This document shows, piece by piece, positions 9,288 to 29,964 of a stretch of DNA of 64,000 bases. The notes below the pieces were generated by a model, which searched no databases, was not told the DNA's origin, and saw only the letters and a program-made list of their open reading frames with translations. Position 1 is the first letter of the stretch. Every line of letters starts with the position of its first letter. The DNA lies in NCBI RefSeq assembly GCF_004116725.1, contig NZ_PDKG01000010.1, forward strand, positions 18,803 to 82,802, in the 5' to 3' direction. Both the position numbers and the translations under genes were made by a program. The DNA is from Arcobacter sp. CECT 8986 (GTDB lineage: Bacteria > Campylobacterota > Campylobacteria > Campylobacterales > Arcobacteraceae).

Positions 9288-9319
9288 TTCATATTTCATT
9301 TATGTTAATAGTTTATAAT
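9288..9319 (+). promoter_or_regulatory. Promoter with OmpR-type direct repeat (TTCAT/TTTAT) and TATAAT
   Basis: TTCAT at 9288-9292 and TTTAT at 9299-9303 are 11 bp apart, one helical turn. TATAAT (9314-9319) follows after exactly 10 nt. The same geometry occurs before four other genes in the window. The predicted transcript start lies at or next to the ATG at 9325, and there is no Shine-Dalgarno, so the mRNA may be leaderless. The second half-site deviates from consensus at one position, so this is the weakest of the five sites. Confidence 0.5.
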
Positions 9320-9324
9320 TACAT

Positions 9325-10452
9325 ATGCGTTTTATAATATTTAGTACAATTTTTATTGCTGTTTTTGCTTTAATGAGCCTTTATATCTCAAAAAGATTTA
9401 TAAATAAACTTCATTTTAAAAAAGTTTATAAAAACTATTTAAACTACTTTTTGATTATAAATTTAATTGGAGTTTTTTGTTATTTTCTATTTAGAAGATA
9501 TCCTTTAATTCCTAATGAAATATACTTTTTACTTAGTATTCCAATAGGTTTGATATTTTTACTATTTTCTACAACAATAATATATGATTTATCATCTTTA
9601 CTAGTAAACAAAAGTGTAAAAGATAGCTCACGAAGAGAGTTTTTGAAAAAAACACTTGATTTTAGTGCAGTTGCAGTTGCTGCTGGAATAAATACAAAAG
9701 CTATTTATAATGCCAAACATACAGAACTTGAAAAAGTTGCAGTAAAACTAAAAAATTTAAAACAAAAATATAATATTGTACAAATAAGTGATGTACACAT
9801 TGGTGGGTTAATAGATAAAAAATTTATTGCATCAATGGTAACAAAAATAAATAGTTTAAATACAGATGCAATAGTTATAACAGGAGATTTGGTTGATACA
9901 AATCTAAAATTTGCAAAACCAGCTCTTGAACAGTTAAAGCATTTAAATAGCAAATATGGAACATACTTTATAGTTGGTAATCATGAATATTTTCATGGTG
10001 TAGATAAAATTATCTCTTATTTAAAAACATTAAATATTACTGTTTTAGAAAATAGCAACGTTTATATTGGTGAAAAAGATAATGGATTTAATCTTGCTGG
10101 AGTATATGATAGATTTGGAGAGAAATTTGGAAGTTTTAAACCAGATATTAAAGCGTCTTTGGAAAAAATAGATAAAAATTCACCAACTATTCTTTTAGCA
10201 CACCAACCAAAATATATAGAAGAGATAAAAGATACATCAAATATAGATTTAGTTCTAAGTGGTCATACACATGGAGGACAAATTGTGCCTTTTAATTTAT
10301 TAGTAAAGCTACAACAGCCATATATAAAAGGTTTACATCAACATAATAAAAATACTCAAATTTATGTTAATAAAGGAACTGGATTTTGGGGACCACCAAT
10401 GAGACTTGGTGCAAGTTCTGAAATTACATATATAAATCTAATTCCATCTTGA
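9325..10452 (+). CDS. Membrane-anchored calcineurin-like metallophosphoesterase (YkuE/LpxG type)
   Basis: A 375-residue protein with three predicted membrane helices in the first ~95 residues, then an SRREFLK motif (about 107-113) ahead of a weak hydrophobic stretch. The catalytic domain follows with the complete metallophosphoesterase motif set: SDVHIGG (about 155), TGDLVD (about 186), GNHEY (about 218), HQPKY, and GHTHGGQ (about 312-318). The family includes LpxG-type UDP-2,3-diacylglucosamine hydrolases and YkuE; the substrate here is not known. The gene has no visible Shine-Dalgarno and a TATAAT only 5 nt before the ATG. A soluble paralogue lies at 18866-19585. Confidence 0.85.
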   Translation: MRFIIFSTIFIAVFALMSLYISKRFINKLHFKKVYKNYLNYFLIINLIGVFCYFLFRRYPLIPNEIYFLLSIPIGLIFLLFSTTIIYDLSSLLVNKSVKDSSRREFLKKTLDFSAVAVAAGINTKAIYNAKHTELEKVAVKLKNLKQKYNIVQISDVHIGGLIDKKFIASMVTKINSLNTDAIVITGDLVDTNLKFAKPALEQLKHLNSKYGTYFIVGNHEYFHGVDKIISYLKTLNITVLENSNVYIGEKDNGFNLAGVYDRFGEKFGSFKPDIKASLEKIDKNSPTILLAHQPKYIEEIKDTSNIDLVLSGHTHGGQIVPFNLLVKLQQPYIKGLHQHNKNTQIYVNKGTGFWGPPMRLGASSEITYINLIPS

Positions 10453-10509
10453 TTTTAATCATTGTTTTTTTCATCTTAAATTTATAAAATATAATAAAAA
10501 GATTTTATA

Positions 10510-10857
10510 ATGACAGATAAAAAATTTGAATCAGAGACTAATACCCTAAAAAAATTCTATGAATTTTACTGCAAAAATAACCATACAAATCAAAAACATA
10601 ATAGTATTAAATTAACATACAAAGATAAGATATATAATATTGAGTTATTACTATGCAAAGAGTGCATAAATAATATAAACTACTCTTTTGAAAGATTACA
10701 AGAGTGTAAACATGAAGTTAAGCCAAGATGTAGAAACTGTCCAGAAACTTGCTATGATAAAATACATTGGAAAAAAACTGCTAAGGTTATGAAATATAGT
10801 GCTATTAGATTAGGGTTATCTTCAATAAAACAGAAAGTAAAGAATATATTCAAGTAA
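10510..10857 (+). CDS. YgbA-like (nitrous oxide-stimulated promoter family) cysteine-rich protein
   Basis: A 115-residue soluble protein that fits the YgbA_NO family. It has an N-terminal ETNTLKKFYEFYCKNNH segment, a central CKECINN motif, and a C-terminal cysteine-rich region CKHEVKPRCRNCPETCY ahead of a basic tail. In E. coli ygbA is induced by nitric oxide and supports growth under nitrosative stress. The cysteine spacing suggests metal binding. No NsrR or NorR site was recognised upstream. It is followed by a 12-bp hairpin. Confidence 0.75.
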   Translation: MTDKKFESETNTLKKFYEFYCKNNHTNQKHNSIKLTYKDKIYNIELLLCKECINNINYSFERLQECKHEVKPRCRNCPETCYDKIHWKKTAKVMKYSAIRLGLSSIKQKVKNIFK

Positions 10858-10875
10858 AGTAAAACTTTACTTGAA
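10849..10875 (+). terminator. Hairpin at the 3' end of the ygbA-like gene
   Basis: A perfect 12-bp inverted repeat, TTCAAGTAAAGT (10849-10860) and ACTTTACTTGAA (10864-10875), with a 3-nt loop spans the stop codon. No U-tract follows on this strand, so termination is likely but not assured. Confidence 0.5.
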
Positions 10876-10925
10876 TAACTCAAAAATTAAGTGCTATAAA
10901 AATAAGTATTTTCTAATTATTCTTG

Positions 10926-11333
10926 TTATTTAATTTGAATAATTTTTTTGTGCTTTTCTTCTGCTAATTTTGGAACTACTATTTCTAATACTCCATCTTC
11001 ATAATTAGCATCAATATTTTCAATATCTGCATTTTCTGGTAAAGTAAAGCCTCTACTAAATTTACCAAATGATGTTTCAACTTTATAATAGTCTTCTTCT
11101 TTTATCTCTTCTTTTGTTTTTCTTTCACCTGAGATTGTTAAAACATCTTTATGAATATCAACTTTTATATTCTCTTTTTTTACACCTGGTAAATCAACAT
11201 CAATGTGATATGCAAATTCACCTTCTCTTGTATTTACCATAGGAACAAATCCACTTACACCTTCATTTGTTTTGTAGAATCGTTTTTCAAATTCAGCAAG
11301 ATCTTTAAATGGATCAAATTTTGTAAGTAACAT
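10926..11333 (-). CDS. Small heat shock protein, Hsp20 / alpha-crystallin family
   Basis: ATP-independent holdase chaperone of 135 residues. The alpha-crystallin domain runs from about residue 38 (AYHIDVDLPGV) to 125, with the family signature FSRGFTLPE near 92-100. It ends with a KKIIQIK tail containing the I-x-I-type motif. The ATG at 11333 is preferred over an in-frame ATG 45 nt upstream because AAAGGAGACG lies just before it. It has its own sigma70 promoter, and its -35 element is embedded in a perfect CIRCE operator, so HrcA repression and heat induction are expected. Confidence 0.92.
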   Translation of the reverse strand: MLLTKFDPFKDLAEFEKRFYKTNEGVSGFVPMVNTREGEFAYHIDVDLPGVKKENIKVDIHKDVLTISGERKTKEEIKEEDYYKVETSFGKFSRGFTLPENADIENIDANYEDGVLEIVVPKLAEEKHKKIIQIK

Positions 11334-11387
11334 AATCGTCTCCTTTAAATTAAAAATACTTGATGTAATTCCTATCAAGTTGGTGTA

Positions 11388-11416
11388 ATTATAACAAATA
11401 TTTTAGCACTTGTCAA
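11388..11416 (-). promoter_or_regulatory. Sigma70 promoter of hsp20
   Basis: On the minus strand a consensus TTGACA (11416-11411) and a consensus TATAAT (11393-11388) are separated by exactly 17 bp. Both hexamers match consensus at all six positions, so the promoter should be strong when not repressed. The -35 lies in the spacer of the proximal CIRCE element. Confidence 0.85.
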
Positions 11417-11429
11417 TACTAAGTGCTAA
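11403..11429. promoter_or_regulatory. CIRCE operator (HrcA site), proximal copy
   Basis: TTAGCACTT-N9-AAGTGCTAA, a perfect 9-bp inverted repeat with the 9-bp spacer of CIRCE. It differs from the classical TTAGCACTC-N9-GAGTGCTAA only at the innermost pair, which is changed symmetrically. Its position over the -35 of hsp20 means HrcA binding would directly block RNA polymerase. Confidence 0.88.
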
Positions 11430-11434
11430 AATAT

Positions 11435-11461
11435 TTAGCAGTTTTTATATATAAGTGCTAA
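11435..11461. promoter_or_regulatory. Second CIRCE-like operator, distal copy
   Basis: TTAGCAGTT-N9-AAGTGCTAA matches the proximal element in arm length and spacer, with one mismatch in the left arm. It lies 32 bp (centre to centre) upstream of the first CIRCE, about three helical turns. A shared 17-bp palindrome (11424-11440) bridges the two elements. It ends 2 bp before the stop codon of the small gene at 11464-11556. Confidence 0.6.
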
Positions 11462-11463
11462 TT

Positions 11464-11556
11464 TTAACTAGCTATTGCTATAAAAGTTGTACTTATAGTT
11501 ATGAAATATATAGCTAAAACTATTATATAATCTTTTTTATTTGTATTAATTTTCAT
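11464..11556 (-). CDS. 30-residue single-pass membrane peptide (unannotated small gene)
   Basis: A short reading frame that starts with ATG at 11556 and ends with TAA at 11464. The protein begins MKINTNKKDY and continues as a hydrophobic helix rich in Ile, Ala and Thr to a C-terminal AS. A strong Shine-Dalgarno, AGAAGGAGAA, lies 7 nt before the ATG. The charged N-terminus followed by one hydrophobic segment is typical of bacterial small membrane proteins. It lies between the typA terminator and the hsp20 operators on the same strand. No homologue is recognised. The strong start signal is the main support. Confidence 0.55.
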   Translation of the reverse strand: MKINTNKKDYIIVLAIYFITISTTFIAIAS

Positions 11557-11570
11557 TTTTTTCTCCTTCT

Positions 11571-11594
11571 TATAGGAGAAAAAAATCTCCTATA
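11571..11594 (-). promoter_or_regulatory. Hairpin just upstream of the small membrane peptide's ribosome-binding site
   Basis: A perfect 9-bp inverted repeat, TATAGGAGA and TCTCCTATA, with a 6-nt loop. On the minus-strand mRNA the 3' arm (UCUCCU) can pair either with its own 5' arm or with the AGGAGA of the adjacent Shine-Dalgarno. An on/off switch is therefore possible, but this is inferred from complementarity only. Confidence 0.4.
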
Positions 11595-11660
11595 TTAATA
11601 TTTTAAATTTATCCTAAGACAATCAGTCATATGTGTTCTTTCCCATTTTTTAGATATAAA

Positions 11661-11694
11661 AAAAGGGAAAGAGCTAAAAAACTCTTTCCCTTTT
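11661..11694 (-). terminator. Intrinsic terminator of typA
   Basis: A perfect 13-bp stem (AAAAGGGAAAGAG with CTCTTTCCCTTTT) and an 8-nt loop, followed on the minus strand by a U-rich tract. It begins 20 nt past the typA stop codon. The symmetrical A/T flanks could let it work in both directions. Confidence 0.9.
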
Positions 11695-11713
11695 AAATAG
11701 ATTTTTCTATTTA

Positions 11714-13528: not shown

Positions 13529-13628
13529 TTACTCTCTTTAAAGTTAAATTTTCGCGATTATACTAAAAACTAACTTAAAGTGTGTGTAATTCTTGAAACT
13601 AACCTTAAAAAAGAAATATGAATTTTTC

Positions 13629-13671
13629 TTCATATTTAATTCATAAGTAATTCATACTAACTAGTTACATT
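13629..13671 (+). promoter_or_regulatory. Triple TTCAT direct repeat and -10 element of the 13695-19585 operon
   Basis: Three identical TTCAT pentamers at 13629, 13640 and 13651 are each 11 bp apart. A -10-like TACATT (13666-13671) follows the last one after 10 nt. No good -35 hexamer is present, as expected when an OmpR/PhoB-type activator replaces it. Upstream, ATGAA at 13619 forms an inverted partner, as also seen before eptA. This is the richest copy of the motif in the window. Confidence 0.65.
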
Positions 13672-13694
13672 TTCAAAAAATAAAAGGATTTTAT

Positions 13695-14777
13695 TTGTTG
13701 AAATTATCTTTAAAAGCCCTAAAAGCCAATAAGTTAAAGACTTCATTAATTATATTAAGTCTTGTTTTTTCTATTACTTCAATATTTTTAATAACTTCAA
13801 TATCAAATGGTGTTATATCAATGTACTCATCTATGTTAAAAAGTGATGGAGATATTATTATCACACAAAAAAATATTTCAGATACATTTTTTTCTAATGT
13901 AGATATTAAATTAATTGATAAATTAAAACAACAAGAAGGAGTAAAAAAAGCATCTGCTTTAATAGTTGGAGCCTCTATTGTAGAAGATTTACCAATTGTT
14001 GCTGTTTATGGTGTTACAAAAAATAGATTTAATAATTATGATTTAAAAGAAGGAGAGTATCCAAAACTTGGAGAAGTTTTAGTTGGTAAATCTATATTTG
14101 AATCACTTAAAAATAAAAAAGAAGTATTAATTTCAAATAACAAATTTAAAATCGCAGGTGTTTTTCAAAGCAAAATTGGTTTTGAAAATGGAGGAGTTGT
14201 ACTAAATATTCAAGATGCAAGTAATATTTTTAATAAAAGTGCATCAATGATAATGTTAAATTGCAAAATAGATACTAATATAGATGAATTAGTAAAAAAA
14301 ATAAATAAAATAGATACAAACATTCAAGCTAAATCTACTACTAACTTTGTAGATAACTATAATCAATTTAAAATAATCAAAACTTCATCAAATGTAATAT
14401 CTTTTATCTCATTTTGTATGGGATTATTAACTATTGCATCAATTTTAAGTATCACAATAAATCAAAGAAAAACAGAGTTTGGGATTAAAAGAGCAATTGG
14501 TATTTCTATGAAAAAAATACTTCTTCAAATTATGAGTGAGAGTATTATATTAGCAATTGTTAGTTTTATTATCTCTATTTGTATTTCAAATATTATTCTA
14601 TTTTTAATCAAAAATATCTCTTACTTACATGGATATGTAAATGGAGAGATATCTTTTGATATTGCAATATTTATATTTATAACTTCTCTTTTAATAGCCC
14701 TACTTGGCTCTATTATTCCAGCACTTAATGCATCAAAAATAGATCCTATTATTTTAATACAAGGAAATAAAATATGA
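13695..14777 (+). CDS. FtsX/LolC-like ABC transporter permease
   Basis: A 360-residue permease of the MacB/LolC/FtsX class. It has one N-terminal membrane helix (about 17-37), an extracytoplasmic MacB-type domain (about 40-230), and three C-terminal helices (about 235-345) ending in IIPALNASKIDPI, the typical end of FtsX permeases. The start codon is TTG at 13695 or 13698; TAAAAGG lies 7-10 nt upstream. Its stop overlaps the ATPase start by 4 nt (ATGA). Lipoprotein release or export of a periplasmic substrate is likely from the family; the actual substrate is unknown. Confidence 0.85.
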   Translation: MLKLSLKALKANKLKTSLIILSLVFSITSIFLITSISNGVISMYSSMLKSDGDIIITQKNISDTFFSNVDIKLIDKLKQQEGVKKASALIVGASIVEDLPIVAVYGVTKNRFNNYDLKEGEYPKLGEVLVGKSIFESLKNKKEVLISNNKFKIAGVFQSKIGFENGGVVLNIQDASNIFNKSASMIMLNCKIDTNIDELVKKINKIDTNIQAKSTTNFVDNYNQFKIIKTSSNVISFISFCMGLLTIASILSITINQRKTEFGIKRAIGISMKKILLQIMSESIILAIVSFIISICISNIILFLIKNISYLHGYVNGEISFDIAIFIFITSLLIALLGSIIPALNASKIDPIILIQGNKI

Positions 14778-15394
14778 TTAGTATAAAAAATGTTTCACAC
14801 AAATATGAAAAAGACTTTGTATTAGAAGATATAAATCTTGAGATAAAAAAAGGCTCTTTTATAACTTTAACAGGAGAGAGTGGAAGCGGTAAAACTACAC
14901 TTTTATCTATTCTATCAACACTTTTAAAACCTACAAGTGGAGAGCTTTATTTTGAAGGTATAAATTATAAAGATATTAAGAATATAGATGAATTTAGACA
15001 AAAAAATATTGGATTTATTTTTCAATTTCACTACTTAATTAATTATTTAACAGTTAAAGAAAATATTCAATTAGCAAATGAAAAAGCAAGTGAAACAAAA
15101 ATAAGAGAAGTATTAAGACAGTTAAATATTGAAGATTTAATTGATTGCTATGCAAATGAGATTTCAGGAGGACAAAGACAAAGAGTTGCTATTGCAAGAG
15201 CTTTAATTAATAATCCAAAAATAATTTTTGCAGACGAACCAACAGGAAACTTAGATTCTCAAAATTCAATAAATGTTTTTAATATATTTCAAGAACTTAT
15301 CAAACAAGGTGTAACTCTTGTAGTTGCAACACATGATAAAAATTTAGCAAGTTTATCAGATATAAACATTGAGGTAAAAGATGGACAACTTTAA
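14774..15394 (+). CDS. LolD/MacB-type ABC transporter ATP-binding protein
   Basis: ATPase of 206 residues that pairs with the preceding permease. Walker A GESGSGKTT (about 34-42), Q-loop GFIFQFHYL (about 82-90), signature SGGQRQR (about 131-137), Walker B IIFADEP (about 152-158) with the D-loop GNLD, and the switch histidine in ATHDK (about 188-192) are all present, so it should be active. It overlaps both neighbours by 4 and 14 nt, which implies coupled translation. Confidence 0.93.
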   Translation: MISIKNVSHKYEKDFVLEDINLEIKKGSFITLTGESGSGKTTLLSILSTLLKPTSGELYFEGINYKDIKNIDEFRQKNIGFIFQFHYLINYLTVKENIQLANEKASETKIREVLRQLNIEDLIDCYANEISGGQRQRVAIARALINNPKIIFADEPTGNLDSQNSINVFNIFQELIKQGVTLVVATHDKNLASLSDINIEVKDGQL

Positions 15395-16943
15395 TTTATT
15401 TATAGAAAAACAGTTTAAGATTTCAGCTGTATTTCTATTCTTAGGACTTTTTTTTGGTATTTTATACTCTATTAATTTACTTGGATACTTTGTTGATTCT
15501 ACTACATTAAATCCTGTAAATATAAGAGCAATTCATATTTCACTTATGCTTTATGGATTTGTTCCTTTGATGCTATCTTATTTACCATTTTTATTAATAA
15601 ATAAAGAAGTAGGAAATAGTAAAGAAGGACTATTTTATCTAAACTTATATACTATTTTTTGGTATATATTTTTAATTTTTATGGTTAATACTTTACTATT
15701 TGGAAATACAAGAGGATTAGCTTTTTATGATTTTGCATATGAATTAAATTTTATTTTAGCTTTTGCAGGATTATTTTATATTATTGCTTTATATAAATTT
15801 ATAAAACTATATAAAGTAAAACCAACTTGGGTAAAAGTATCTTTATATATAGTTATATCAGCGCCTTTTGCACTACTTATTTTAATGAATCCAACAATAG
15901 GACAAGTTGAAAGTACTGTTTCTGGTCCACATGGAGATAACACTTTAGGAATGAGCTTTGCTTTAATTCCAATTTACTATTTAATAATTAAATTTTTAAG
16001 TAAAAATGATTTCAAATCAAGATGGAATATTTTTTGGATTATACCTCTTGTATTTTATATATTATCTGTTTTGCATAGAAGCTTCATTGGGCATTTAACT
16101 TATAATCAAGAGTGGTTTTTTCAATATCTTACACTATTTTATATTCCTTTACTTTATAGATGGTACAAAGATGCAGATATTGAAAAATACTCAAAACTTG
16201 CACTTTTAATATCAATTGCTGCATTTTTATTTGTAGATATTGAAGGGAATATTCTATTTATTCCTGAACTTAGATGGGTTTTTCATAGAAATGACTTAGT
16301 TATAGCACATGCTCACGTAGCTATGGGAATTGGTGTATTTTTTATGGTAATTTCAATGTTTGTTTCATATATAAAACAGCTTCAAAAACTACATTTTTAT
16401 ATTCTTTATTTAGCAGGTTTAGTAGGAATTTTTACAGTTTTAACACTAAGTGGATTTGCACAAGCTTCTATGTTAGATGCTTCAACTTATACATTATGGG
16501 AGTTTAGAACATTTTTTGGAGTTGTTACATTTTTATCAATAATTGCATTTATTCAAATAAGAACAAAATATTCTTTATTAGAAAAATATAATATTTTTGG
16601 TGTTTTAAGTGATGGATTGGGTGGAATCTTTTTGATTTTATTATCTAGTTATTTATATCCACTTTTTGGGTTTAGTTTTCAAGGTAAATATGAATATGTG
16701 GTTTTTGCTTTTGTAAGTATAACAGGAGTAATTCATTTTCTAGCTTTTAAATATAAAGAGTATGAAAATATTCTTACAAAACTTACTGTTTTTATTAGAG
16801 TATTTGTAAGTTCAATATTTTTCTCTTTATATTTAGCAAAATCTCTTCATATAGTTGCACTATTAATATCTTTATTTGATATTTCAATGGTTGTTTTTTA
16901 TCTAGTTTATATTTATAAAAAGGAGCAATTATGCAAAAACTAA
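15381..16943 (+). CDS. Heme-copper oxidase subunit I-like integral membrane protein
   Basis: A 520-residue protein with about 12-14 membrane helices. Several segments resemble CcoN/NOR-type subunit I. RAIHISLMLYGF (about 49-60) carries the expected low-spin heme histidine. SGPHGDNTLGM (about 182-192) corresponds to the helix holding one CuB histidine. DIEGNILF plus AHAHVAMG (about 308-315) carry the two heme-ligand histidines of helix X. The adjacent His-His pair for CuB is not conserved; only LHRS and GHL occur in that region. No CcoO/CcoP or NorC partner is nearby. It could be a divergent oxidase or reductase, a heme-only quinone protein, or a sensor. It overlaps its neighbours by 14 and 13 nt. 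Confidence 0.6.
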   Translation: MDNFNLFIEKQFKISAVFLFLGLFFGILYSINLLGYFVDSTTLNPVNIRAIHISLMLYGFVPLMLSYLPFLLINKEVGNSKEGLFYLNLYTIFWYIFLIFMVNTLLFGNTRGLAFYDFAYELNFILAFAGLFYIIALYKFIKLYKVKPTWVKVSLYIVISAPFALLILMNPTIGQVESTVSGPHGDNTLGMSFALIPIYYLIIKFLSKNDFKSRWNIFWIIPLVFYILSVLHRSFIGHLTYNQEWFFQYLTLFYIPLLYRWYKDADIEKYSKLALLISIAAFLFVDIEGNILFIPELRWVFHRNDLVIAHAHVAMGIGVFFMVISMFVSYIKQLQKLHFYILYLAGLVGIFTVLTLSGFAQASMLDASTYTLWEFRTFFGVVTFLSIIAFIQIRTKYSLLEKYNIFGVLSDGLGGIFLILLSSYLYPLFGFSFQGKYEYVVFAFVSITGVIHFLAFKYKEYENILTKLTVFIRVFVSSIFFSLYLAKSLHIVALLISLFDISMVVFYLVYIYKKEQLCKN

Positions 16944-17899
16944 CATTAATTTTTTTCATAGCTTTTGAACTATGTTATTACTTATTAATAGCACAAACAG
17001 GAATTGTAGAACACTACTCTTCTAATATATTTGCAATAGCTTTTTTACCAATTGGTGGTATTATTGGTTCTATTTTAAGTTTTGCTATTAAAGTTTCTGA
17101 AAAGAAGAAAATTATTGGTTTTCTAATAATTCAGTTAATTGTTAGTTTGTTTTATCCAAATATAAACTCTTTTTTACTTTTTATATTAGGAATAAGTGTT
17201 GGTGCTTTAGCTCCTTTATTAATAAATGAATTAAAAAAAGCATCAAATATCCAACTTGGATTTGCTTTAGCAATATCTTATGCACTTGGAACTTTTATGT
17301 TTACATATGATGCAAGTAAAAGAACAAGTATCGCTATTTTATTTACTATCATTACTCTAATCTCATCATTTTTTCTTGATATGAAAAAACATAAAGATTT
17401 GACTAAAAATAGTTCAAATTTCCCTCTTTATGTGATGGTATTATGGATATTTTTAGATTCATGTCTATTTGAAACACTATCAAGAGATATGGATATTTCT
17501 ATTTGGAGAGATGGTTTTAGTTTAGAAATAGCAACATTTCATATTATTGGTGTTGTATGCGCATTCTATTTTAAAATAGAAAAAGTTCAAAAAGAGCTAC
17601 TGATTATAACTTTATTTGCACTTTCATATCTATTCTATTTTTTACAAGAACCATTGATTTTATCAATAGTTTACCCTTTTGTTATATCTTTTTACAATGT
17701 AGTGATTCTTCAAACAATCGTAAAAAAAGATATAAAAACATTAGGTATTTATATGGTATTTATTGGTTGGGCTGCATCTGGAGCTGGATTATTTGTAGCT
17801 TTAGAAAACCTAATTTTATATGTACCATTAATGTTTTTCATTTCACTAATAAAAATTTTAATTACACAAATTCAAAACAAGGAGATTGCATATGTATAG
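16931..17899 (+). CDS. MFS-like integral membrane protein of unknown function
   Basis: A 322-residue, strongly hydrophobic protein with about ten predicted helices. A short cytoplasmic-looking loop KVSEKKK and a LDMKKHKDLTK linker divide it roughly in the pattern of a shortened MFS transporter. I do not recognise a family signature or catalytic motif. GGAGCAATT gives a good ribosome-binding site, and the start lies within the end of the oxidase-like gene. Its position between a heme-copper-like protein and a YceI lipocalin suggests a role in the same membrane process. A dedicated assembly or transport partner is one possibility. Confidence 0.5.
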   Translation: MQKLTLIFFIAFELCYYLLIAQTGIVEHYSSNIFAIAFLPIGGIIGSILSFAIKVSEKKKIIGFLIIQLIVSLFYPNINSFLLFILGISVGALAPLLINELKKASNIQLGFALAISYALGTFMFTYDASKRTSIAILFTIITLISSFFLDMKKHKDLTKNSSNFPLYVMVLWIFLDSCLFETLSRDMDISIWRDGFSLEIATFHIIGVVCAFYFKIEKVQKELLIITLFALSYLFYFLQEPLILSIVYPFVISFYNVVILQTIVKKDIKTLGIYMVFIGWAASGAGLFVALENLILYVPLMFFISLIKILITQIQNKEIAYV

Positions 17900-18416
17900 A
17901 TTATTAATGTTAGCGTTTTTTGCAATTGCATTAAATGCCCAAAATTTAGATTTTTCTGATGGAAAAATTTTAGCACATACTGAAGTTTTTGGAGATAGTA
18001 ATATCAACCCATTTTCTCAAAATATAAGCTCACATCTTAGAATGGATGATAAAATTGATACTATAAAAGGAGAAGTTGAACTAAATACTATTACTTTACA
18101 TAGTGAAAATAGTGATAGAGATGAACATATGTATGAAGTTTTACATACAAAAAACTTTCCTAAAATAAATTATTTGATTTCTGAAGTTAGAAAAGTTGAT
18201 GATGGTTATGAAATAAATGGTATTTTAACACTAAATGGCATAAAAAAAATAGTATCATCAAAAGCTACAATAATTGATGAAAATAATCATATTATTTTTG
18301 ATGGAAAATTTAGCATCAATTTAACTTCATTTAATTTAGAACCACCAACAATGTTCTTTTTAACGGTTAGAGATCAAATAGATATAACTTACCATTTAGA
18401 TTATATAAAAGGATAA
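17892..18416 (+). CDS. YceI-like periplasmic lipid-binding protein
   Basis: A 174-residue exported protein of the YceI beta-barrel family, whose members bind polyisoprenoids or amides in a hydrophobic pocket. A signal peptide (YRLLMLAFFAIALNA) ends near residue 17. Family features are the EVELNTITLHSENSDRDEHM segment (read in two parts: the E-x-N-x-I core and SDRDEHM) and a GILTLNGIKK turn. ATG at 17892 is preferred over TTG at 17886 because the AAGGAG sequence is then 7 nt away. It overlaps the preceding stop by 8 nt. A second YceI protein is encoded at 38859. Confidence 0.75.
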   Translation: MYRLLMLAFFAIALNAQNLDFSDGKILAHTEVFGDSNINPFSQNISSHLRMDDKIDTIKGEVELNTITLHSENSDRDEHMYEVLHTKNFPKINYLISEVRKVDDGYEINGILTLNGIKKIVSSKATIIDENNHIIFDGKFSINLTSFNLEPPTMFFLTVRDQIDITYHLDYIKG

Positions 18417-18419
18417 GTT

Positions 18420-18869
18420 TTGAAAAAAATACTTTTACTTATCTGCTTAGTTTTTTTTGCTAATGCAAAAGAGTTTCATATTGGAGATAATATAGGAAGT
18501 TTCTCTTTACTTGACCAATTTGATACAAAACATACTATAAACAAAGATGTAAAAACAATTCTTGTTTCATTTGAAAAACAAACAAGTAAAGATATAAATG
18601 AGTTTTTAAACTCAAAAAGCCCTACTTTTTTAAAAGAGCATAATGCTGTTTTTATAGCCAATATTTCAGGTATGCCATCAATTATTACAAAACTTTTTGC
18701 ACTACCTAAAATGAGAGATTACAAACATAAAATTTTATTAATTTATGACGAAGCAGATACAAGATTTAAAAGTGCTGAAGAAAAATCAACTCTATATAGG
18801 TTAGAAGATGGTGTAATAAAACAAATTGAGTTTATTACGAAAGATGATTTAGAAAAAGTTTTTAAATGA
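18420..18869 (+). CDS. Exported thioredoxin-fold protein without redox cysteines
   Basis: A 149-residue protein with a cleavable signal peptide (KKILLLICLVFFANA). The mature part starts HIGDNIGSFSLLDQFD, which resembles the N-terminus of peroxiredoxin/SCO/YtfJ thioredoxin folds. It has KTILVSF at the expected first strand and LIYDEAD later. The mature sequence contains no cysteine, so it cannot be a normal thiol oxidoreductase; a binding or structural role is more likely. It starts with TTG (18420), 3 nt after the YceI stop, and its stop overlaps the next ATG by 4 nt. Confidence 0.55.
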   Translation: MKKILLLICLVFFANAKEFHIGDNIGSFSLLDQFDTKHTINKDVKTILVSFEKQTSKDINEFLNSKSPTFLKEHNAVFIANISGMPSIITKLFALPKMRDYKHKILLIYDEADTRFKSAEEKSTLYRLEDGVIKQIEFITKDDLEKVFK

Positions 18870-19585
18870 AACTTCCAAATATATCAACTTTGAATATAAA
18901 TATAAAAAATGAAGATTTGCACAATATGCAAATTCTTCATTTAAGTGATTTGCATATAAATACAAAAACTTCAAATAAAGATATTGAACTTCTAGTAAAT
19001 AACTGCAATAATACAAAATATGATATTTTGGTAATTACAGGTGATATAATTGATTGCAAGGTAAAAAAAATAGAAGAAAAGTTAAAAATATTAAATAAAT
19101 TAAAAAAAGTTTATTATATTAGTGGCAATCATGACTTATTTTATGGAATAAAAGATTTAGAAAAGATATTAGATAATTTTAATTTTATAGATAATAAAAC
19201 TCTATTTATAAAATACAATAATAAGAATATTGCATTAGCAGGACTTAGTGATAGATTTTCTAAATTTTTTAAAATAAAAAGAGAAGAGATAAAAGTTTTT
19301 AAATTTTTAAATGAAAATAAAAACTCAATTTTATTAGCTCATCAACCAAAAGATTACAACTTTGCAGTAAATACAAACACAAATCTTTTCTTATGTGGTC
19401 ATACACATGGAGGCCAGATATTTCCTTTTCACTACCTTGTAAGATTAGTACAACCTTTTTTAGCAGGACTTTTTTATAGAAAAAATAGTGCAATTTATGT
19501 AAATAAAGGCTTAGGAACTTGGGGTATTGATTTTAGATTTAAAGCAAATAGTGAGATAACTTTACTCAAATTATTATACAAATAA
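18866..19585 (+). CDS. Soluble calcineurin-like metallophosphoesterase
   Basis: A 239-residue paralogue of the membrane-anchored enzyme at 9325, lacking its three membrane helices. All metal-binding motifs are present: LSDLHI (about 27), TGDIID (about 55), SGNHDLF (about 87), AHQPKD and GHTHGGQIFP (about 176-185). The C-terminal block after GHTHGGQ (VRLVQPFLAGL, YVNKGLGTWG) matches the paralogue closely, so both likely act on related substrates. UDP-diacylglucosamine-type lipids are the family precedent. It is the last gene of the seven-gene operon and lies 64 nt before the response regulator. Confidence 0.85.
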   Translation: MKLPNISTLNINIKNEDLHNMQILHLSDLHINTKTSNKDIELLVNNCNNTKYDILVITGDIIDCKVKKIEEKLKILNKLKKVYYISGNHDLFYGIKDLEKILDNFNFIDNKTLFIKYNNKNIALAGLSDRFSKFFKIKREEIKVFKFLNENKNSILLAHQPKDYNFAVNTNTNLFLCGHTHGGQIFPFHYLVRLVQPFLAGLFYRKNSAIYVNKGLGTWGIDFRFKANSEITLLKLLYK

Positions 19586-19588
19586 CTA

Positions 19589-19620
19589 TTCATTTAATAT
19601 TCATATTTTTTTTGTATTAT
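19589..19620 (+). promoter_or_regulatory. TTCAT-N6-TTCAT repeat and -10 of the response regulator gene
   Basis: TTCAT at 19589-19593 and 19600-19604, 11 bp apart. After 10 nt comes TATTAT (19615-19620); a TATAAT begins 3 nt later. It lies directly upstream of the OmpR-type regulator, so autoregulation is the simplest reading. Confidence 0.6.
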
Positions 19621-19649
19621 AATAAATAATTAAAAATATTGAGGCCAAT

Positions 19650-20318
19650 ATGAAAATTTTAGTAATAGAAGATGATGAAAAGATTGTAAACTTCCTAAAA
19701 AAGGGTTTGGAAGAAGAAGCATATGTGGTTGATTATTCATTTAATGGTGATGAAGGTATATACTTAGCAACTGTAAATGAGTATGACTTAATACTTCTTG
19801 ATATAATGATACCTGTAAAAGATGGTATTGAAGTATGTAAAACTCTTAGAAACTCAAATATAAATACTCCTATTATTATGTTAACTGCAAAAGATTCAAT
19901 TGAGGATAAAATAAAAGGTTTAGATATTGGAGCTAATGATTATTTAGCAAAACCTTTCTCATTTAGTGAACTATTAGCTAGAATTAGAGTTCAATTAAGA
20001 ACAAGCTACTCAAATCAAACTATACTTAAAATTGATGATTTAGAACTAAATATTCTAACAAAATCTGCAAAAAGAGGCGAAGATAATATAAACTTAACAG
20101 CAAAAGAGTTTGCTCTTTTAGAATACTTGATAAAAAATAAAGATAAAGTATTATCTGAAAGTGTTATTAGTTCAGCTTTAAGTAATATGGATGATACAAA
20201 TATTAGTAATATAGTAAATGTTTATATCTATAGATTAAGAAATAAAATAGATAAACCATATGAAAAAAAATTAATTAAAACTATGAGAGGATTGGGATTT
20301 AAAATAAGTGATGAATAA
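19650..20318 (+). CDS. OmpR/PhoB-family response regulator
   Basis: A 222-residue two-component regulator. The receiver domain has the acidic pocket EDD (7-9), phosphoacceptor Asp51, the conserved threonine in MLTAKD, and Lys101 in LAKPF. The C-terminal winged helix (about 128-220) contains INLTAKEFALLEYL and the recognition segment VNVYIYRLRNKID. A partner histidine kinase overlaps its stop codon. The next genes are eptA and dgkA, as in PmrAB-type envelope systems. The direct repeats it probably binds occur before its own gene, eptA, the operon at 13695 and two further genes. Confidence 0.92.
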   Translation: MKILVIEDDEKIVNFLKKGLEEEAYVVDYSFNGDEGIYLATVNEYDLILLDIMIPVKDGIEVCKTLRNSNINTPIIMLTAKDSIEDKIKGLDIGANDYLAKPFSFSELLARIRVQLRTSYSNQTILKIDDLELNILTKSAKRGEDNINLTAKEFALLEYLIKNKDKVLSESVISSALSNMDDTNISNIVNVYIYRLRNKIDKPYEKKLIKTMRGLGFKISDE

Positions 20319-21681
20319 TTTATCTATCAAAAAAAAGCTATTAATTTATAATATTTTAATTCAGACAATAATACTTTTATTATTCTCTTTTTCATTATAT
20401 AAAACACTTGAATCTTCTTCAAAAGATAAACTTGAGTCAACTTTAAAAGTTATTGTTCTTGATGTTGTTGATGATATTGTAGAACATAAAGATAGACTTG
20501 CAAAAAGAGTATTTAATGAAGAAAAAGAGTATAAGTTTAAACCCTTATACATTAGACTTTTAAAAGTTGATGATACATATGAAGTAGTTAATTCTACTAC
20601 TTTTCCAGACGACATAACAGAAGATATAAAACAGTTAAATAGTATACATAAAAATAGTATTTCATTTAATTATCAAAAAGATTACATAATTAGTCAAATG
20701 AAACTATTTTTAAATAATCAAAATTATGTGGTTGAAGTTGCTACAAATTTTGATGCAATAAACTCTACTTTAGATAATATTTTATATATACTATTTTTTA
20801 TCGTTCCAATAATTTTAATCATTTCAATTATTGCGGGTTATTTTCTAATTCATAAATCTTTTGCTCCAGTTGAAAATATGCTAGGCAATTTAAAAAATAT
20901 AAATGCTAGTGATTTATCAAAAAGATTAAAAGCAAATAATATGAATGATGAAATTGATTTATTAGCAAATGAGATAAATAATTTACTACAAAGACTACAA
21001 CTATCTTTTGAAAAAATATCTCAATTTAGTAGTGATGCTTCCCATGAATTAAAAACCCCACTTACAATTATTCGTGGAGAAATTGAAATAGCATTAAGAA
21101 AAGATAGATCAATTCAAGAGTACAAAGATAGCTTTGAAAACTGCTTAGATGAGATATTAGTTATCCAACAAACAATTGATGATTTACTATTTTTAGCAAA
21201 AGAAGAGTATGAAGTTTTAGAAAAAACTAAAGAGGATGTTTATCTAGATGAAGTTACAAATGAAGCTTATAAAGAGATGCTATCTTTTGCAAAATTGAGA
21301 CAAATAAAACTTCAATGTAAAATAGATGAAGCAATTCAAATAAAAGGTCACCACAAACTACTTAAAATTGCCATAAAAAACATCATTAAAAATGCTATTA
21401 CATTTAGCTTTAAAAATGAAGAAGTTTGTATCAAAAATTATAGTGATGATAAGTACTTTATTATTAGTGTTAAAGATAAAGGAATTGGTATTTCAAAAAA
21501 AGACCAAGATAAGATATTTGAAAAGTTCTTTAGAACAGACAAAAGCCGAAATAAAGAGTCTGGTGGAACAGGTTTAGGAATGTCAATTGTGAAAAAAATA
21601 GTTAAAATTCATAATGGAGAAATTGAGTTAAAAAGCCAAGAAAACAAAGGAACTTGTGTATACTTTAAATTCTTAAAATGA
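20311..21681 (+). CDS. HAMP-domain sensor histidine kinase
   Basis: Membrane histidine kinase of about 456 residues, partner of the regulator just upstream. It has helix 1 at about 10-30, a periplasmic domain of about 125 residues, helix 2 at about 155-178 and a HAMP segment. The H-box is SSDASHELKTPLT (about 240-252), followed by the N-box (KNIIKNAITFS), G1 (DKGIGIS) and G2 (GGTGLGMSIV). The start may be GTG at 20308 or ATG at 20311; both overlap the regulator's end. The periplasmic domain shows no cluster of acidic residues of the PmrB kind, so the signal is unknown. Confidence 0.9.
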   Translation: MNNLSIKKKLLIYNILIQTIILLLFSFSLYKTLESSSKDKLESTLKVIVLDVVDDIVEHKDRLAKRVFNEEKEYKFKPLYIRLLKVDDTYEVVNSTTFPDDITEDIKQLNSIHKNSISFNYQKDYIISQMKLFLNNQNYVVEVATNFDAINSTLDNILYILFFIVPIILIISIIAGYFLIHKSFAPVENMLGNLKNINASDLSKRLKANNMNDEIDLLANEINNLLQRLQLSFEKISQFSSDASHELKTPLTIIRGEIEIALRKDRSIQEYKDSFENCLDEILVIQQTIDDLLFLAKEEYEVLEKTKEDVYLDEVTNEAYKEMLSFAKLRQIKLQCKIDEAIQIKGHHKLLKIAIKNIIKNAITFSFKNEEVCIKNYSDDKYFIISVKDKGIGISKKDQDKIFEKFFRTDKSRNKESGGTGLGMSIVKKIVKIHNGEIELKSQENKGTCVYFKFLK

Positions 21682-21694
21682 ATATGAATTTTTG

Positions 21695-21737
21695 TTCATA
21701 AATTGTTAAACATTTATTAATGGTTACCTTATATAAT
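21695..21737 (+). promoter_or_regulatory. Regulator repeats and TATAAT promoter of eptA-dgkA
   Basis: TTCAT (21695), TTAAA (21706) and TTAAT (21717) are spaced by 11 bp. TATAAT (21732-21737) follows after 10 nt. An inverted ATGAA (21685) precedes them, as before the 13695 operon. Only the first pentamer is perfect, but the spacing to the -10 is the same as at the other sites. Confidence 0.55.
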
Positions 21738-21762
21738 TTCTTTATCAAAATAAAGGAATTAT

Positions 21763-23373: not shown

Positions 23374-23723
23374 GAAATCAACCAAAATATAATTTTATAA
23401 AAAATACATCATATGCACTTGAGGGATTAAAAGATTTAATAAAAAGTGAAAGTTCATTTAAAATTGAACTTCTCTTTGCCATTATTCTTTTGCCAGTTAT
23501 ATATTTTGTTGATGAATCACTAACAAATAAACTTCTTTTATTTATCACTTTTAGTGGTGTTTTATTAGCAGAAATAATAAATAGTGCAATAGAAAGAACT
23601 GTTGATTTAGTGACTTTAGATTTTCATCATATGGCAAAAAGAGCTAAAGATGCAGGAAGTGCTATTGTTTTTTTAAGCATCTTTATTTGTACTATTACTT
23701 GGTTATCTATTCTTTTAGATTAG
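23370..23723 (+). CDS. dgkA: Diacylglycerol kinase
   Basis: A 117-residue trimeric membrane kinase that phosphorylates diacylglycerol to phosphatidate. It has three membrane helices, the catalytic EIINSAIERTVDLV motif (about 70-83) and a nearby AKDAGSAIVFLS helix, as in E. coli DgkA. Pairing with eptA makes sense because phosphoethanolamine transfer from phosphatidylethanolamine releases diacylglycerol that must be recycled. The start overlaps the eptA stop by 4 nt. Confidence 0.95.
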   Translation: MRNQPKYNFIKNTSYALEGLKDLIKSESSFKIELLFAIILLPVIYFVDESLTNKLLLFITFSGVLLAEIINSAIERTVDLVTLDFHHMAKRAKDAGSAIVFLSIFICTITWLSILLD

Positions 23724-23725
23724 GT

Positions 23726-24694: not shown

Positions 24695-24849
24695 GTATTT
24701 TATCCTATATAAAAATTATACCTATTTAATGTATTTTTTTATATTTAATTAGTTTAATTTTTAAACAATTTTAAACTCATTAATCTAAAAAAGTAAAAAA
24801 AAATTTACCTTTTTAATACATTTTAATATTATTATTGATAATATTTCAG

Positions 24850-24929
24850 CAAGATTTGTGGTACAAATTGACATCTTGAATTTTTCTTTCAAGTTCTGTC
24901 ATAATTATTCTAAATATTGATTTTAGAAT
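24850..24929 (+). promoter_or_regulatory. Structured 5' leader of yedE with mutually exclusive stems
   Basis: Within the 262-nt intergenic region before yedE three hairpins follow each other: ATTTGT/ACAAAT (24854-24868), GACA..CTTGAA/TTCAAG..TGTC (24870-24900), and ATTCTAAA/TTTAGAAT (24907-24929). An alternative stem, CAAGAT (24850-24855) with ATCTTG (24873-24878), uses the same bases as the second hairpin. This resembles an attenuator or riboswitch layout. The part at 24695-24849 is very AT-rich and holds nothing I can name. Confidence 0.4.
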
Positions 24930-24956
24930 TTCTTATTTTAGCTCTTAGGAGTATTT

Positions 24957-26153
24957 ATGAATTTTTGGAAAAATTTCAAAAAAGATTTTTTAGTTAACTT
25001 TTGGTCACCTATTCCTGCAGTAATTGCACTTGGTGTTTTATCTGCTTATTATTTTGGGATAACAGGAACATACTGGGCTGTAACAGGTGAGTTTACTAGA
25101 TGGGGAGGTCATGTTTTACAGGCTTTTGGTGTAGATTTATCAACATGGGGATATTATCAAATAATGCATATGGATGGCAACTCATTTACAAGAGTTGATG
25201 GAGTTATGATTATTGGTATGTTTGCTGGTTGTATAGCTGCTGCATTTTGGGGAAATAATATTAAACTAAGAATGCCATCAAGTAAAATTAGAGTATTTCA
25301 AGCACTTATAGGTGGAATAATTGCAGGTTTTGGTGCTAGACTTGGTATGGGTTGTAACCTTGCTAGTTTCTTTACTGGAATTCCGCAATTTTCTGTTCAT
25401 GCATGGATTTTTACAATAGCAATGATTATTGGTGTATATTTTGGTGCAAAATTTACACTTTTACCTATGTTTAGATCAAAAATGAAAATGAAAAAAGTAT
25501 CTTGCGTAAAACCTTTAGAAAAAGATGAAACAAAAGTTAATAATGTATTTAAATTAGGAAGTATTGTTTTTATTGCAATTATTATTTGGGCATTATATTT
25601 AATATTTTTTCAAAATAGTACGAAACTTGGTATGGCAATGCTTTTTGGTAGTGCATTTGGGTTAATTATTGCAAAAGCTCAAATTTGTTTTACATCAGCT
25701 TTTAGAGATTTATTTATAACAGGAAGAAGCCAAATGGCTAAAGCAATTGTAATTGGTATGATTGTTGCAACAATTGGTGTATTTTCATATATTATGATGG
25801 GACAACCTCCTAAAATTATGTGGGCAGGTCCAAATACAATTATTGGTGGTTTACTATTTGGATTTGGTATTGTTCTTGCAGGTGGTTGCGAATGTGGTTG
25901 GATGTATAGAGCAGTTGAAGGTCAAGTCCATTTTTGGATAGTAGGTGTTGGAAATGTTATTGGTTCAACTCTTTTAGCTTTTGTATGGGATGATATTTCT
26001 GTAAGTTTAGCAACAAGCTGGCCAAAAATAAATTTACTAGAATCATTTGGAAATTATGGTGGTTTATTTTTTAATTATGGATTACTATTTTTACTATTTG
26101 TATTAATTTTAATTTTAGAAAAAAGATATTTAAATAAATCAAAAAATAGATAA
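24957..26153 (+). CDS. yedE: YedE/FdhT-type sulfur/selenium transport membrane protein
   Basis: A 398-residue membrane protein of the YeeE/YedE family with about ten helices. It closely resembles E. coli YedE as I recall it: ITGTYWAVTGEFTRWGG near residue 30, GFGARLGMGCNLASFF near 125, CFTSAFRDLFITGR near 245 and GGCECGWMYRAVEGQVHFW near 308. Conserved cysteines in GMGCNLA, AQICFTS and GGCECGW could pass sulfur or selenium atoms. The Campylobacter jejuni homologue FdhT supports selenium use for formate dehydrogenase. The TusA-like partner follows 10 nt downstream. The choice between selenium and thiosulfate is not settled by sequence. Confidence 0.85.
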   Translation: MNFWKNFKKDFLVNFWSPIPAVIALGVLSAYYFGITGTYWAVTGEFTRWGGHVLQAFGVDLSTWGYYQIMHMDGNSFTRVDGVMIIGMFAGCIAAAFWGNNIKLRMPSSKIRVFQALIGGIIAGFGARLGMGCNLASFFTGIPQFSVHAWIFTIAMIIGVYFGAKFTLLPMFRSKMKMKKVSCVKPLEKDETKVNNVFKLGSIVFIAIIIWALYLIFFQNSTKLGMAMLFGSAFGLIIAKAQICFTSAFRDLFITGRSQMAKAIVIGMIVATIGVFSYIMMGQPPKIMWAGPNTIIGGLLFGFGIVLAGGCECGWMYRAVEGQVHFWIVGVGNVIGSTLLAFVWDDISVSLATSWPKINLLESFGNYGGLFFNYGLLFLLFVLILILEKRYLNKSKNR

Positions 26154-26163
26154 AGGAAATAAG

Positions 26164-26403
26164 ATGAAAATTGAAGATATTATCCCAGATTTTAGACTTG
26201 ATATGCAAGGTGAACCTTGTCCTTATCCAGCATTTAATGCACTTGAAGCGATGAAAGATTTGCAAAAAGGACAAATTCTTGAAGTTATAAGTGATTGTCC
26301 ACAAAGTATTAATAATATTCCAGCAGATGCAAAAGCACATGGATATGAAGTACTAAATGTTGATAGCAGTGGTCCAACAATCAGATATATAATAAAAAAA
26401 TAA
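26164..26403 (+). CDS. yedF: YedF/FdhU TusA-family sulfurtransferase-like protein
   Basis: A 79-residue TusA-fold protein with the CPYP motif (Cys19) that carries persulfide, or possibly selenium, in this family. SDCPQSINNIPADAKAHGY is strongly YedF-like, with a second cysteine in SDCPQS. It should receive the chalcogen from YedE at the inner face of the membrane and pass it to a biosynthetic acceptor. The 10-nt gap and AAAGGA ribosome-binding site indicate an operon with yedE. Confidence 0.88.
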   Translation: MKIEDIIPDFRLDMQGEPCPYPAFNALEAMKDLQKGQILEVISDCPQSINNIPADAKAHGYEVLNVDSSGPTIRYIIKK

Positions 26404-26461
26404 TCTTTTACATTTATATTTTTGTATTGTATAATATTTCTCATTTTTTTAAGGATTATAT

Positions 26462-27382
26462 ATGAATTATCAAAAAATATTAGAAGATATACAAGAACAA
26501 ATACAACCAGAACTAATAAAAGGAAATGTAGCAGATTATATTCCAGCACTTAAAAATGTAAAAGAAGATGATTTTGCGATGAGTATAAGACTTTTAGATG
26601 GTCAAACTTTTAATGTGGGATGTTTTGATAAAAAATTTTCTATTCAAAGTATTTCAAAAGTCTTTACTTATTCAATGGCACTAAAAATTTATAGCAAAGA
26701 ACTTTATAGTAGAGTTTGGTATGAGCCATCTGGAAACCCATTTAACTCATTAGTTCAACTTGAATATGAAAAAGGAATACCTAGAAATCCATTTATAAAC
26801 GCAGGTGCAATTGTTACAACAGATAGTTTAGTAACTCACTTTAAAGATAAAAATATTGCTATTAAACAAATCAATGATTTTATAAACAAACTTAGTAAAG
26901 ATAATATCTTAATTAATGAAGATATTTATATGTCTGAACTTAAAACAGGACATAGAAATAGAGCCTTAGCAAATTTAATGAAAAGTTTTTCTAATATAAA
27001 AAACCCTATAAATAATACTTTAGAAACTTATTTTAAACACTGCTCTTTTATGATGAATACACAGCAATTAGCAACAACAATGCTATTTTTAGCAAATCAT
27101 GGAACAGACCCTTTAACAAAAGAGGAAATTATCACCTCATCAAAAGCTAAAAGGATAAACTCATTAATGCTTACATGTGGTCACTATGATGCATCTGGAG
27201 ATTTTGCTTTTCATGTTGGCTTACCTGGTAAAAGTGGAGTTGGAGGAGGAATTGTTGCAATAGTTCCTAAAAAAATGGCAATTTGTGTATACTCTCCAAG
27301 ACTAAACTCAAAAGGAAACTCTCTTGCTGGAACAAAAGCATTGGAGCTATTTACTACTATTACGGGATTATCTATTTTTTAA
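26462..27382 (+). CDS. glsA: Glutaminase
   Basis: Hydrolyses L-glutamine to glutamate and ammonia. It has 306 residues, the standard length for bacterial GlsA/YbaS enzymes of the serine beta-lactamase-like fold. The catalytic S-x-x-K motif is Ser63/Lys66 in IQSISKVF. PSGNPFNS (about 92-99), FINAGAIV, the conserved YMSE segment and the GKSGVGGGIVA loop are all present. It has its own TATAAT-like promoter (26430-26435). The gene is followed by the promoter of a b-type cytochrome on the same strand. Confidence 0.93.
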   Translation: MNYQKILEDIQEQIQPELIKGNVADYIPALKNVKEDDFAMSIRLLDGQTFNVGCFDKKFSIQSISKVFTYSMALKIYSKELYSRVWYEPSGNPFNSLVQLEYEKGIPRNPFINAGAIVTTDSLVTHFKDKNIAIKQINDFINKLSKDNILINEDIYMSELKTGHRNRALANLMKSFSNIKNPINNTLETYFKHCSFMMNTQQLATTMLFLANHGTDPLTKEEIITSSKAKRINSLMLTCGHYDASGDFAFHVGLPGKSGVGGGIVAIVPKKMAICVYSPRLNSKGNSLAGTKALELFTTITGLSIF

Positions 27383-27405
27383 AATGAAAAAATAGTAATT
27401 AAAAA

Positions 27406-27437
27406 TTCACCTATTATTCATATTTATTATCTATAAT
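27406..27437 (+). promoter_or_regulatory. Regulator repeat and TATAAT promoter of the cytochrome b gene
   Basis: TTCAC (27406-27410) and TTCAT (27417-27421) are 11 bp apart, followed after 10 nt by a consensus TATAAT (27432-27437). The layout equals that before eptA and the operon at 13695. No other -35 element is evident. Confidence 0.55.
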
Positions 27438-29961: not shown

Positions 29962-29964
29962 TAC

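Follow-up and report, generated by a model that had tools for sequence, protein, structure and literature searches.

A candidate TTCAY direct-repeat operator of a small, likely self-activating two-component regulon in Arcobacter sp. CECT 8986

Can a short direct repeat in front of several promoters of one genomic region be assigned to the response regulator that is encoded among them? The question is raised by a stretch of 64,000 nucleotides (nt) of Arcobacter sp. CECT 8986 (contig NZ_PDKG01000010.1, positions 18,803 to 82,802; G000:C10:18803-82802), from here on the window, which belongs to a genome of 2.65 Mb. A preliminary description had placed TTCAT repeats of 11-base-pair (bp) pitch, ending 10 nt before a -10 hexamer, at five places in the window and had attributed them to a regulator encoded at 19650. 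All five sequences do occur there, but the exact layout TTCAY-N6-TTCAY-N10-TANNNT is present at only three of them (13640, 19589 and 27406) and is missing at 9288 and 21695. What the five have in common, a direct repeat of 11-bp pitch that occupies the -35 position at a fixed 10 nt from the -10, is supported. Most probably, the regulator-kinase gene pair, a seven-gene operon and a cytochrome b561 gene share TTCAY-N6-TTCAY-N10 as the operator of a self-activating regulon of the OmpR family; this gene set is smaller than the one first proposed and would likely constitute a small, self-activating two-component regulon.

The first of the three exact sites, TTCAT-N6-TTCAT-N10-TACATT (13640..13671), is a conserved candidate operator at the head of the seven-gene operon and is preceded by a third in-phase TTCAT (13629-13633), as read from the sequence. 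The second, TTCAT-N6-TTCAT-N10-TATTAT (19589..19620), is a candidate autoregulation site upstream of the regulator gene (19650..20318), which is followed by the gene for a sensor histidine kinase (20308..21681). The third, TTCAC-N6-TTCAT-N10-TATAAT (27406..27437), lies upstream of the gene for the b561-type cytochrome (27464..28180), identified by its match to family PF01292. These sites and genes, as well as the operon, the phosphoesterase gene at 9325 with its upstream site, and the eptA promoter discussed below, are all on the plus strand of the window.

Layout and frequency of the repeat

When two mismatches are allowed, which corresponds to the looseness of the preliminary description, the pattern has 24 matches in the window against 17.6 +/- 5.0 in shuffled versions, 13 of 100 of which reach 24, and is thus not enriched; with one mismatch, it is hardly enriched across the genome (109 matches against 86 of a reversed control pattern). 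Both loose scans gave results near background and were dropped as evidence. The exact form does rise above its control, with seven matches in the genome, three of them in the window, against a single match of the reversed pattern. The excess is small, falls short of a genome-wide regulon and therefore points to a small local one.

The spacing and the letters of the repeat were compared with alternatives in the window and 20 loci with orthologues of the regulator (837,414 bases, both strands counted). A gap of 6 and a spacer of 10 yield 28 exact sites, whereas each of the other 139 combinations of gap and spacer tested yields between 0 and 6; 15 of the 28 stand before the operon-head permease gene, five before the regulator gene, four before the cytochrome gene and four elsewhere (one of these in an oriC-like region). 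With this spacing, TTCAT in both boxes accounts for 21 sites, and each of the 19 remaining arrangements of its letters gives 0-2. These results bear on the possibility that the repeat does no more than reflect the A/T periodicity (11 bp) of sigma-70 promoters in Campylobacterota, which lack a -35 box, without any dedicated regulator. A periodic promoter signal is known in Campylobacter, and the background-level occurrence of the loose versions of the motif would agree with such an origin. However, the preference for one order of letters argues against it, as does the nearly fixed C of each box (2.8 bits in the weight matrix described next), and with only seven exact sites in 2.65 Mb the motif is no general promoter element, so that this explanation appears very improbable.

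Thirty-one sites went into the weight matrix: 23 from operon heads, five from regulator genes and three from the loci L009 and L010 (two upstream of the cytochrome gene and one upstream of a gene for a 632-amino-acid protein). The matrix omits the window and those loci that are known to belong to the window's genus (L008, L024, L153-L156); one of its sites agrees letter for letter with the regulator site of L024. L024 is Malaciobacter halophilus DSM 18005, and a 400-base piece of its regulator gene is identical in L154 (G003, of the window's genus), which suggests Malaciobacter as the name of that genus. When all window positions on both strands are ranked, 19589, 27406, 13640 and 9288 take the first four places, with the highest score at the regulator site 19589. 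Three positions reach at least 16 bits, against 0.08 expected, and none of 60 simulated windows has three. At least 18 bits are reached by one position, as happens in two of the 60 simulations, which peak at 23.9, above the 20.3 of the best window position, so that single high scores arise by chance.

Conservation before the operon and before the regulator gene

The seven genes follow one another with short gaps or none and are taken as one operon (13695..19585), the same gene set being found beside the regulator gene in relatives. They encode a MacB-like FtsX permease (13695-14777), an ABC ATPase (14774-15394), a Cox1-fold membrane protein (15381-16943), a 322-amino-acid membrane protein (16931-17899) and a 149-amino-acid protein with an apparent signal peptide as judged by eye (18420-18869), both without a Pfam match, YceI (17886-18416) between these two and a calcineurin-like phosphoesterase at the end (18866-19585). 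The Cox1-like proteins have six invariant histidines (52, 184, 302, 310, 312 and 452) in 19 aligned relatives, with no neighbouring pair among them, and the window's protein is perhaps a heme protein and not an oxidase. A link to quinones, as suggested in the preliminary description, would have the YceI domain and the Cox1-like protein as its basis.

Among 42 distinct permease upstreams of up to 90 bases each, 34 contain the exact site, six contain it with one mismatch and two lack it. In both exceptions, L324 (G075) and L323 (G092), the operon starts with another gene and the exact site is 5' of that gene: in G075, the operon is reordered, with the gene for the 322-amino-acid protein in first place, and in G092, an open reading frame (ORF) for 323 amino acids that overlaps the permease start comes first. 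G092 has a second exact site inside the operon, upstream of the gene for the 322-amino-acid protein, and these two loci are the only ones with an exact site among the 38 upstreams of that gene. In a tally from which L323 was left out, the upstreams of the other genes of the locus, scanned in the same way, contain no exact site (histidine kinase 0/36, ABC ATPase 0/38, Cox1-like protein 0/38, YceI 0/40, phosphoesterase 0/39, dgkA 0/8). The distance from the site to the operon start is 19-30 nt at 28 exact operon-head sites. Two genomes of further families (G077 and G091) also have exact operon-head sites, with permease, ATPase and Cox1-like proteins that are 49-56% identical; in all, the exact site recurs 5' of the operon in four other families (G075, G077, G091 and G092), twice with a changed first gene; the site of G047 has one mismatch. 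It may tentatively be proposed that TTCAY-N6-TTCAY-N10-TANNNT is an operator code of Campylobacterota at large, read by related response regulators; the operator at the head of this membrane operon would then outlast changes of gene order and of regulator, and would be the conserved part of the circuit. As a separate observation, an inverted repeat AATATGAA-N6-TTCATATT (13615-13636) overlaps the outermost TTCAT of the window's operon promoter and faces a divergent gene that we take to be similar to typA.

Before the regulator gene, the exact site is found in 12 of 38 distinct upstreams. In nine of these 12, 40-66 nt separate the regulator gene from the co-directional gene before it; no such gene was called in the other three. 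By contrast, 25 of the 26 upstreams without the site have a gap of at most 23 nt to the preceding gene; in the remaining one, L160 (which matches L025), no upstream gene was called, but in L025 the phosphoesterase match overlaps the regulator start. Judging from these gaps, the site accompanies regulator genes in need of a promoter of their own and is missing from those that would be co-transcribed with the site-bearing operon. Orthologues of the regulator (at least 76% identical) occur in 27 of the 73 family genomes searched, the window's genome included, and the Cox1-like marker of the operon is found in all 27, in G047, whose regulator is 59% identical, and in four genomes of other families. 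Two observations thus support the link between repeat and regulator that had been proposed: a conserved site before the gene of the regulator itself, and the joint inheritance of the regulator and the seven-gene operon.

The regulator contains a receiver domain and a Trans_reg_C domain, with matches to PF00072 and PF00486 above gathering scores, as characteristic of the OmpR/PhoB family, and its putative operator, a direct repeat of 11-bp pitch near the -35, is also of the kind read by that family. The kinase has HAMP-like, HisKA and HATPase_c domains and is taken as the cognate partner because of its adjacency. The best NCBIfam matches of both proteins are heavy-metal subfamilies, TIGR01387 for the regulator (252, cut-off 279.2) and TIGR01386 for the kinase (241.2, cut-off 292.55), but these scores are below the curated cut-offs, as is the score of the regulator in the CusR/HprR test (NF008567; 231.2, cut-off 353). 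The boxes of CusR and HprR are inverted repeats.

Could another regulator read these sites? In the window's genome, 44 Trans_reg_C matches (43 over the cut-off) gave 30 loci, and a score was obtained for 26 of these. Among the 26, the regulator at 19650 alone has an exact upstream site, and no scored paralogue exceeds 36% identity to it. It should be noted that 14 of the 44 matches gave no locus and four loci were not scored, and therefore a further regulator candidate may exist. The recognition-helix region (NVYIYRLR-x-KIDK in most) is kept down to regulators of 57-62% identity, several of which have exact sites 27-185 nt before the regulator gene or before a gene upstream of it. The box might nevertheless serve a whole class of response regulators in Campylobacterota as common operator, some of the window's sites being read by a regulator other than that at 19650. 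Such sharing would account for TTCAY-N6-TTCAY repeats near paralogous regulators in relatives and before genes for secreted or membrane proteins in other families (N-termini judged by eye), as well as for the TTCAC-type copies of the window's own genome, of which an exact one precedes cptA and another, with one mismatch, a cytochrome c gene, and for the operon site of G075 and G092, which have no close orthologue of the regulator. It is quite unlikely, however, that the window's sites are divided in this way, as the own-promoter sites track the gene of the 19650 regulator and none of its scored paralogues has an exact site.

Several observations weigh against an assignment of the box to a self-activating regulon of the 19650 regulator. 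G075 and G092 keep the operon site in spite of having no regulator match at E <= 1e-40, and paralogous regulators of about 50% identity adjoin TTCAT-type repeats elsewhere; the box is therefore no proof of the 19650 regulator alone. Three of the four exact genomic sites outside the window (L002, L003 and L004) lie antisense within ORFs and are taken as chance matches. The exact motif has 135 matches against 83 of the control in the 27 regulator-bearing genomes, an excess of about two for each genome, but the 46 family genomes that lack the regulator also have 132 against 94; such numbers suit a handful of genuine sites in each genome above a background, and not a large regulon. In addition, 12 of 15 distinct cytochrome upstreams lack the site, the -10 hexamers are poor at many operon heads (TAAACT, TAAATT), and the upstream sequences are related by descent, so that the counts given above are not independent.

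Candidate and rejected members

Conservation in relatives is strong for the sites at 13640 and 19589, partial for that at 27406 and weak for that at 9288, and of the 30 eptA upstreams examined, 25 lack the TTCAY pair. The preliminary description had included eptA-dgkA by virtue of a TTCAT box, and eptA was also counted in at first in the present analysis. In the window, the eptA promoter (21695..21737) has TTCAT, TTAAA and TTAAT at 11-bp pitch followed by N10-TATAAT, so that only the box farthest from the -10 is TTCAT. In-phase arrays of three to four TTRAY copies precede eptA in G005, G002, G001, G054, G044, G022 and G018. They are also found in G051 and G057, two genomes for which no match to the regulator was obtained at E <= 1e-40. 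As the array occurs in genomes with and without the regulator, the promoter was judged to be of TTRAY type and eptA was removed from the regulon.

The assignment to TTRAY has its own difficulties. The window's eptA has one TTRAY copy in register, because the middle box is TTAAA, and 16 of 200 shuffles reach that number. In ten of the 30 upstreams no TTRAY copy is in register, and among these ten, five (G055, G010, G059, G071 and G016) have two TTCAT copies instead; four of the five TTCAY-pair genomes were counted as lacking the regulator (no match of at least 76%), with G016 among them having a match of 57%. The regulator-kinase pair of the window recalls PmrAB (BasRS), a two-component pair that likewise adjoins eptA-dgkA and uses a direct repeat of 11-bp pitch. 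PmrA is described as reading TTTAAG-N5-TTTAAG, or YTTAAK (PMC10927774). The regulator at 19650 differs in that its sites are TTCAY, with TTCAT-N6-TTCAT and no YTTAAK-type repeat at its own promoter, and in that it scores 177.5 bits against the PmrA equivalog NF007928, below the cut-off of 330, whereas the eptA promoter is the more PmrA-like of the two. Judging from these repeats, the eptA promoter probably belongs to another, PmrA-like regulator, and TTRAY is perhaps a second, parallel operator class.

Some further features of eptA promoters may be recorded. TTRAY repeats of 11-bp pitch, 10 nt from the -10, are found in the window (21684-21740) and in L230, L232, L233 and L234, and the eptA promoters of L240-L242, L244 and L252 bear TTCATTTTCATTTCAT repeats. 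A regulator paralogue is encoded within ~3 kb on the eptA contig of G055, G010 and G071. The 5'-most TTCAT upstream of the window's eptA is one arm of an inverted repeat, ATGAA-N6-TTCAT, just past the kinase stop codon.

The calcineurin-like phosphoesterase encoded at 9325..10452, with an N-terminal membrane region as judged by eye, had also been included in the regulon; a firm place in it is not supported. Its upstream site, TTCAT-N6-TTTAT-N10-TATAAT (9288..9319), has TTCAT as the first box but TTTAT as the second, and both site and gene are weak candidates. Orthologues of the gene occur in all six genomes of the genus; among the five other genomes, only the closest relative, G005, keeps the same, equally degenerate site, G002 has TTCAT-N6-TTAAA-N10-TATAAT, and G001, G003 and G004 offer no match with fewer than three mismatches. 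A larger regulon, in which eptA and this phosphoesterase would be targets via degenerate boxes, would gain from the high matrix rank of 9288 and its retention in G005, from the 11-bp pitch and 10-nt spacer that eptA shares and its position next to the kinase gene, and from an exact TTCAT site before eptA in G047 (with its regulator of 59% identity). Yet the mismatches at the 9288 site in three genomes of the genus, the TTRAY arrays in genomes without the regulator and the scores of the eptA registers, which are below 0 bits and rank 276 and 857 in the window, make this extension doubtful.

The small regulon might include a few further genes within the genus. The cytochrome site is present in three of the 15 distinct upstreams (L008, L009 and L010) and also in G005, and sequence comparison leaves the cytochrome gene (own genome, G002 and G005) and cptA (own genome, G001, G002 and G005) as candidates. 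The cptA-like gene for a phosphoethanolamine transferase (L319 1776-3482, contig C1 of the own genome) has an exact TTCAC-N6-TTCAC-N10 site ~30 nt upstream, at C1:143012, which is the fourth exact genomic site outside the window, and exact sites also lie upstream of the likely counterparts, matched by similar N-termini, in G001, G002 and G005. A TTCAC-type repeat, with one mismatch in the own genome, precedes a small cytochrome c gene (CxxCH by eye) at C1:152636 (L075) and in L277, near another OmpR-type regulator gene (C1:154155), and is perhaps part of a separate TTCAC regulon.

Additional TTCAC/TTCAT copies at 29957-29999 of the window, with a counterpart at 9879 of L008, lie in a TTATTCAC cluster between ORFs that we take to be ruvC and dnaA. 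They were rejected as regulator sites because they fit the DnaA box described for Arcobacter butzleri, HTWTTCACW (PMC5043019). The dense cluster (29957-30200) mimics the TTCAY repeat and, as it fits an Arcobacter DnaA-box cluster, probably marks the replication origin.

Related systems and the proposed circuit

The consensus of DccR is reportedly WTTCAC-N6-TTCACW over the -35, whereas the half-sites found here are mostly TTCAT. DccR of Campylobacter jejuni is described as an OmpR-type regulator (PMC9449129), the DccRS regulon as a small one of periplasmic or membrane genes and dccR itself (PMC7118207), and the system has been linked to MacABC (PMC11365321). Set side by side by description, the two systems share the type of regulator and a MacB-type link, a small membrane regulon that includes the regulator's own gene is proposed for the window as well, and they differ in that the operon of the window has the Cox1-like protein, YceI and phosphoesterases.

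Sulfurospirillum, another genus of Campylobacterota, has in RR2 a further OmpR-family regulator, which uses repeats with a six-nucleotide gap at the -35, as is proposed for the one at 19650. The account of RR2, which acts in tetrachloroethene respiration, includes gel shifts with short repeats that overlap the -35, but there the half-site is CTATW, the bound pair is 17 bp apart and the targets concern dehalogenation (PMC7755780). A geometry similar to that of the proposed TTCAY operator is described for the Streptomyces activator AfsR, a solved case with an OmpR-type DNA-binding domain and 11-bp repeats, the 3' repeat being 8 bp from the -10 in the AfsR family (PMC10936776). For CemR, an Arcobacter regulator, other targets have been reported (PMC11334517). 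No publication on the 19650 regulator or on a TTCAT-N6-TTCAT regulon in Arcobacteraceae was found in the open-access literature, which is no proof of absence.

The sites, their spacing and conservation, the co-inheritance and the domains of regulator and kinase are established by the sequence, and the following circuit would be consistent with them. The kinase would sense the state of the envelope, the signal probably being an envelope disturbance, and would phosphorylate the regulator, two protomers of which would bind in head-to-tail orientation, each to one TTCAY box and at a distance of one helical turn from the other. The bound regulator would take the place of the -35 box and would contact and recruit sigma-70 to a weak promoter, so that the effect would be activation rather than repression, with the operon and the regulator pair activated together. 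A regulator gene with a promoter of its own has the site in a position suited to direct autoregulation; a regulator gene that follows close behind the operon would depend on the site at the operon head for its transcription, and the same loop would be closed.

The proposal offers a hypothesis at the level of single bases for an apparently uncharacterised two-component system that is present in 27 of 73 family genomes and the operator of which is conserved beyond the family. It would tie an unexplained membrane operon with Cox1-like, YceI and MacB-like proteins to one regulatory input, and it predicts which promoters are part of the regulon and which, like that of eptA, are not. If the operator code should indeed turn out to be class-wide, Campylobacterota regulators might be assigned to their targets by sequence alone.

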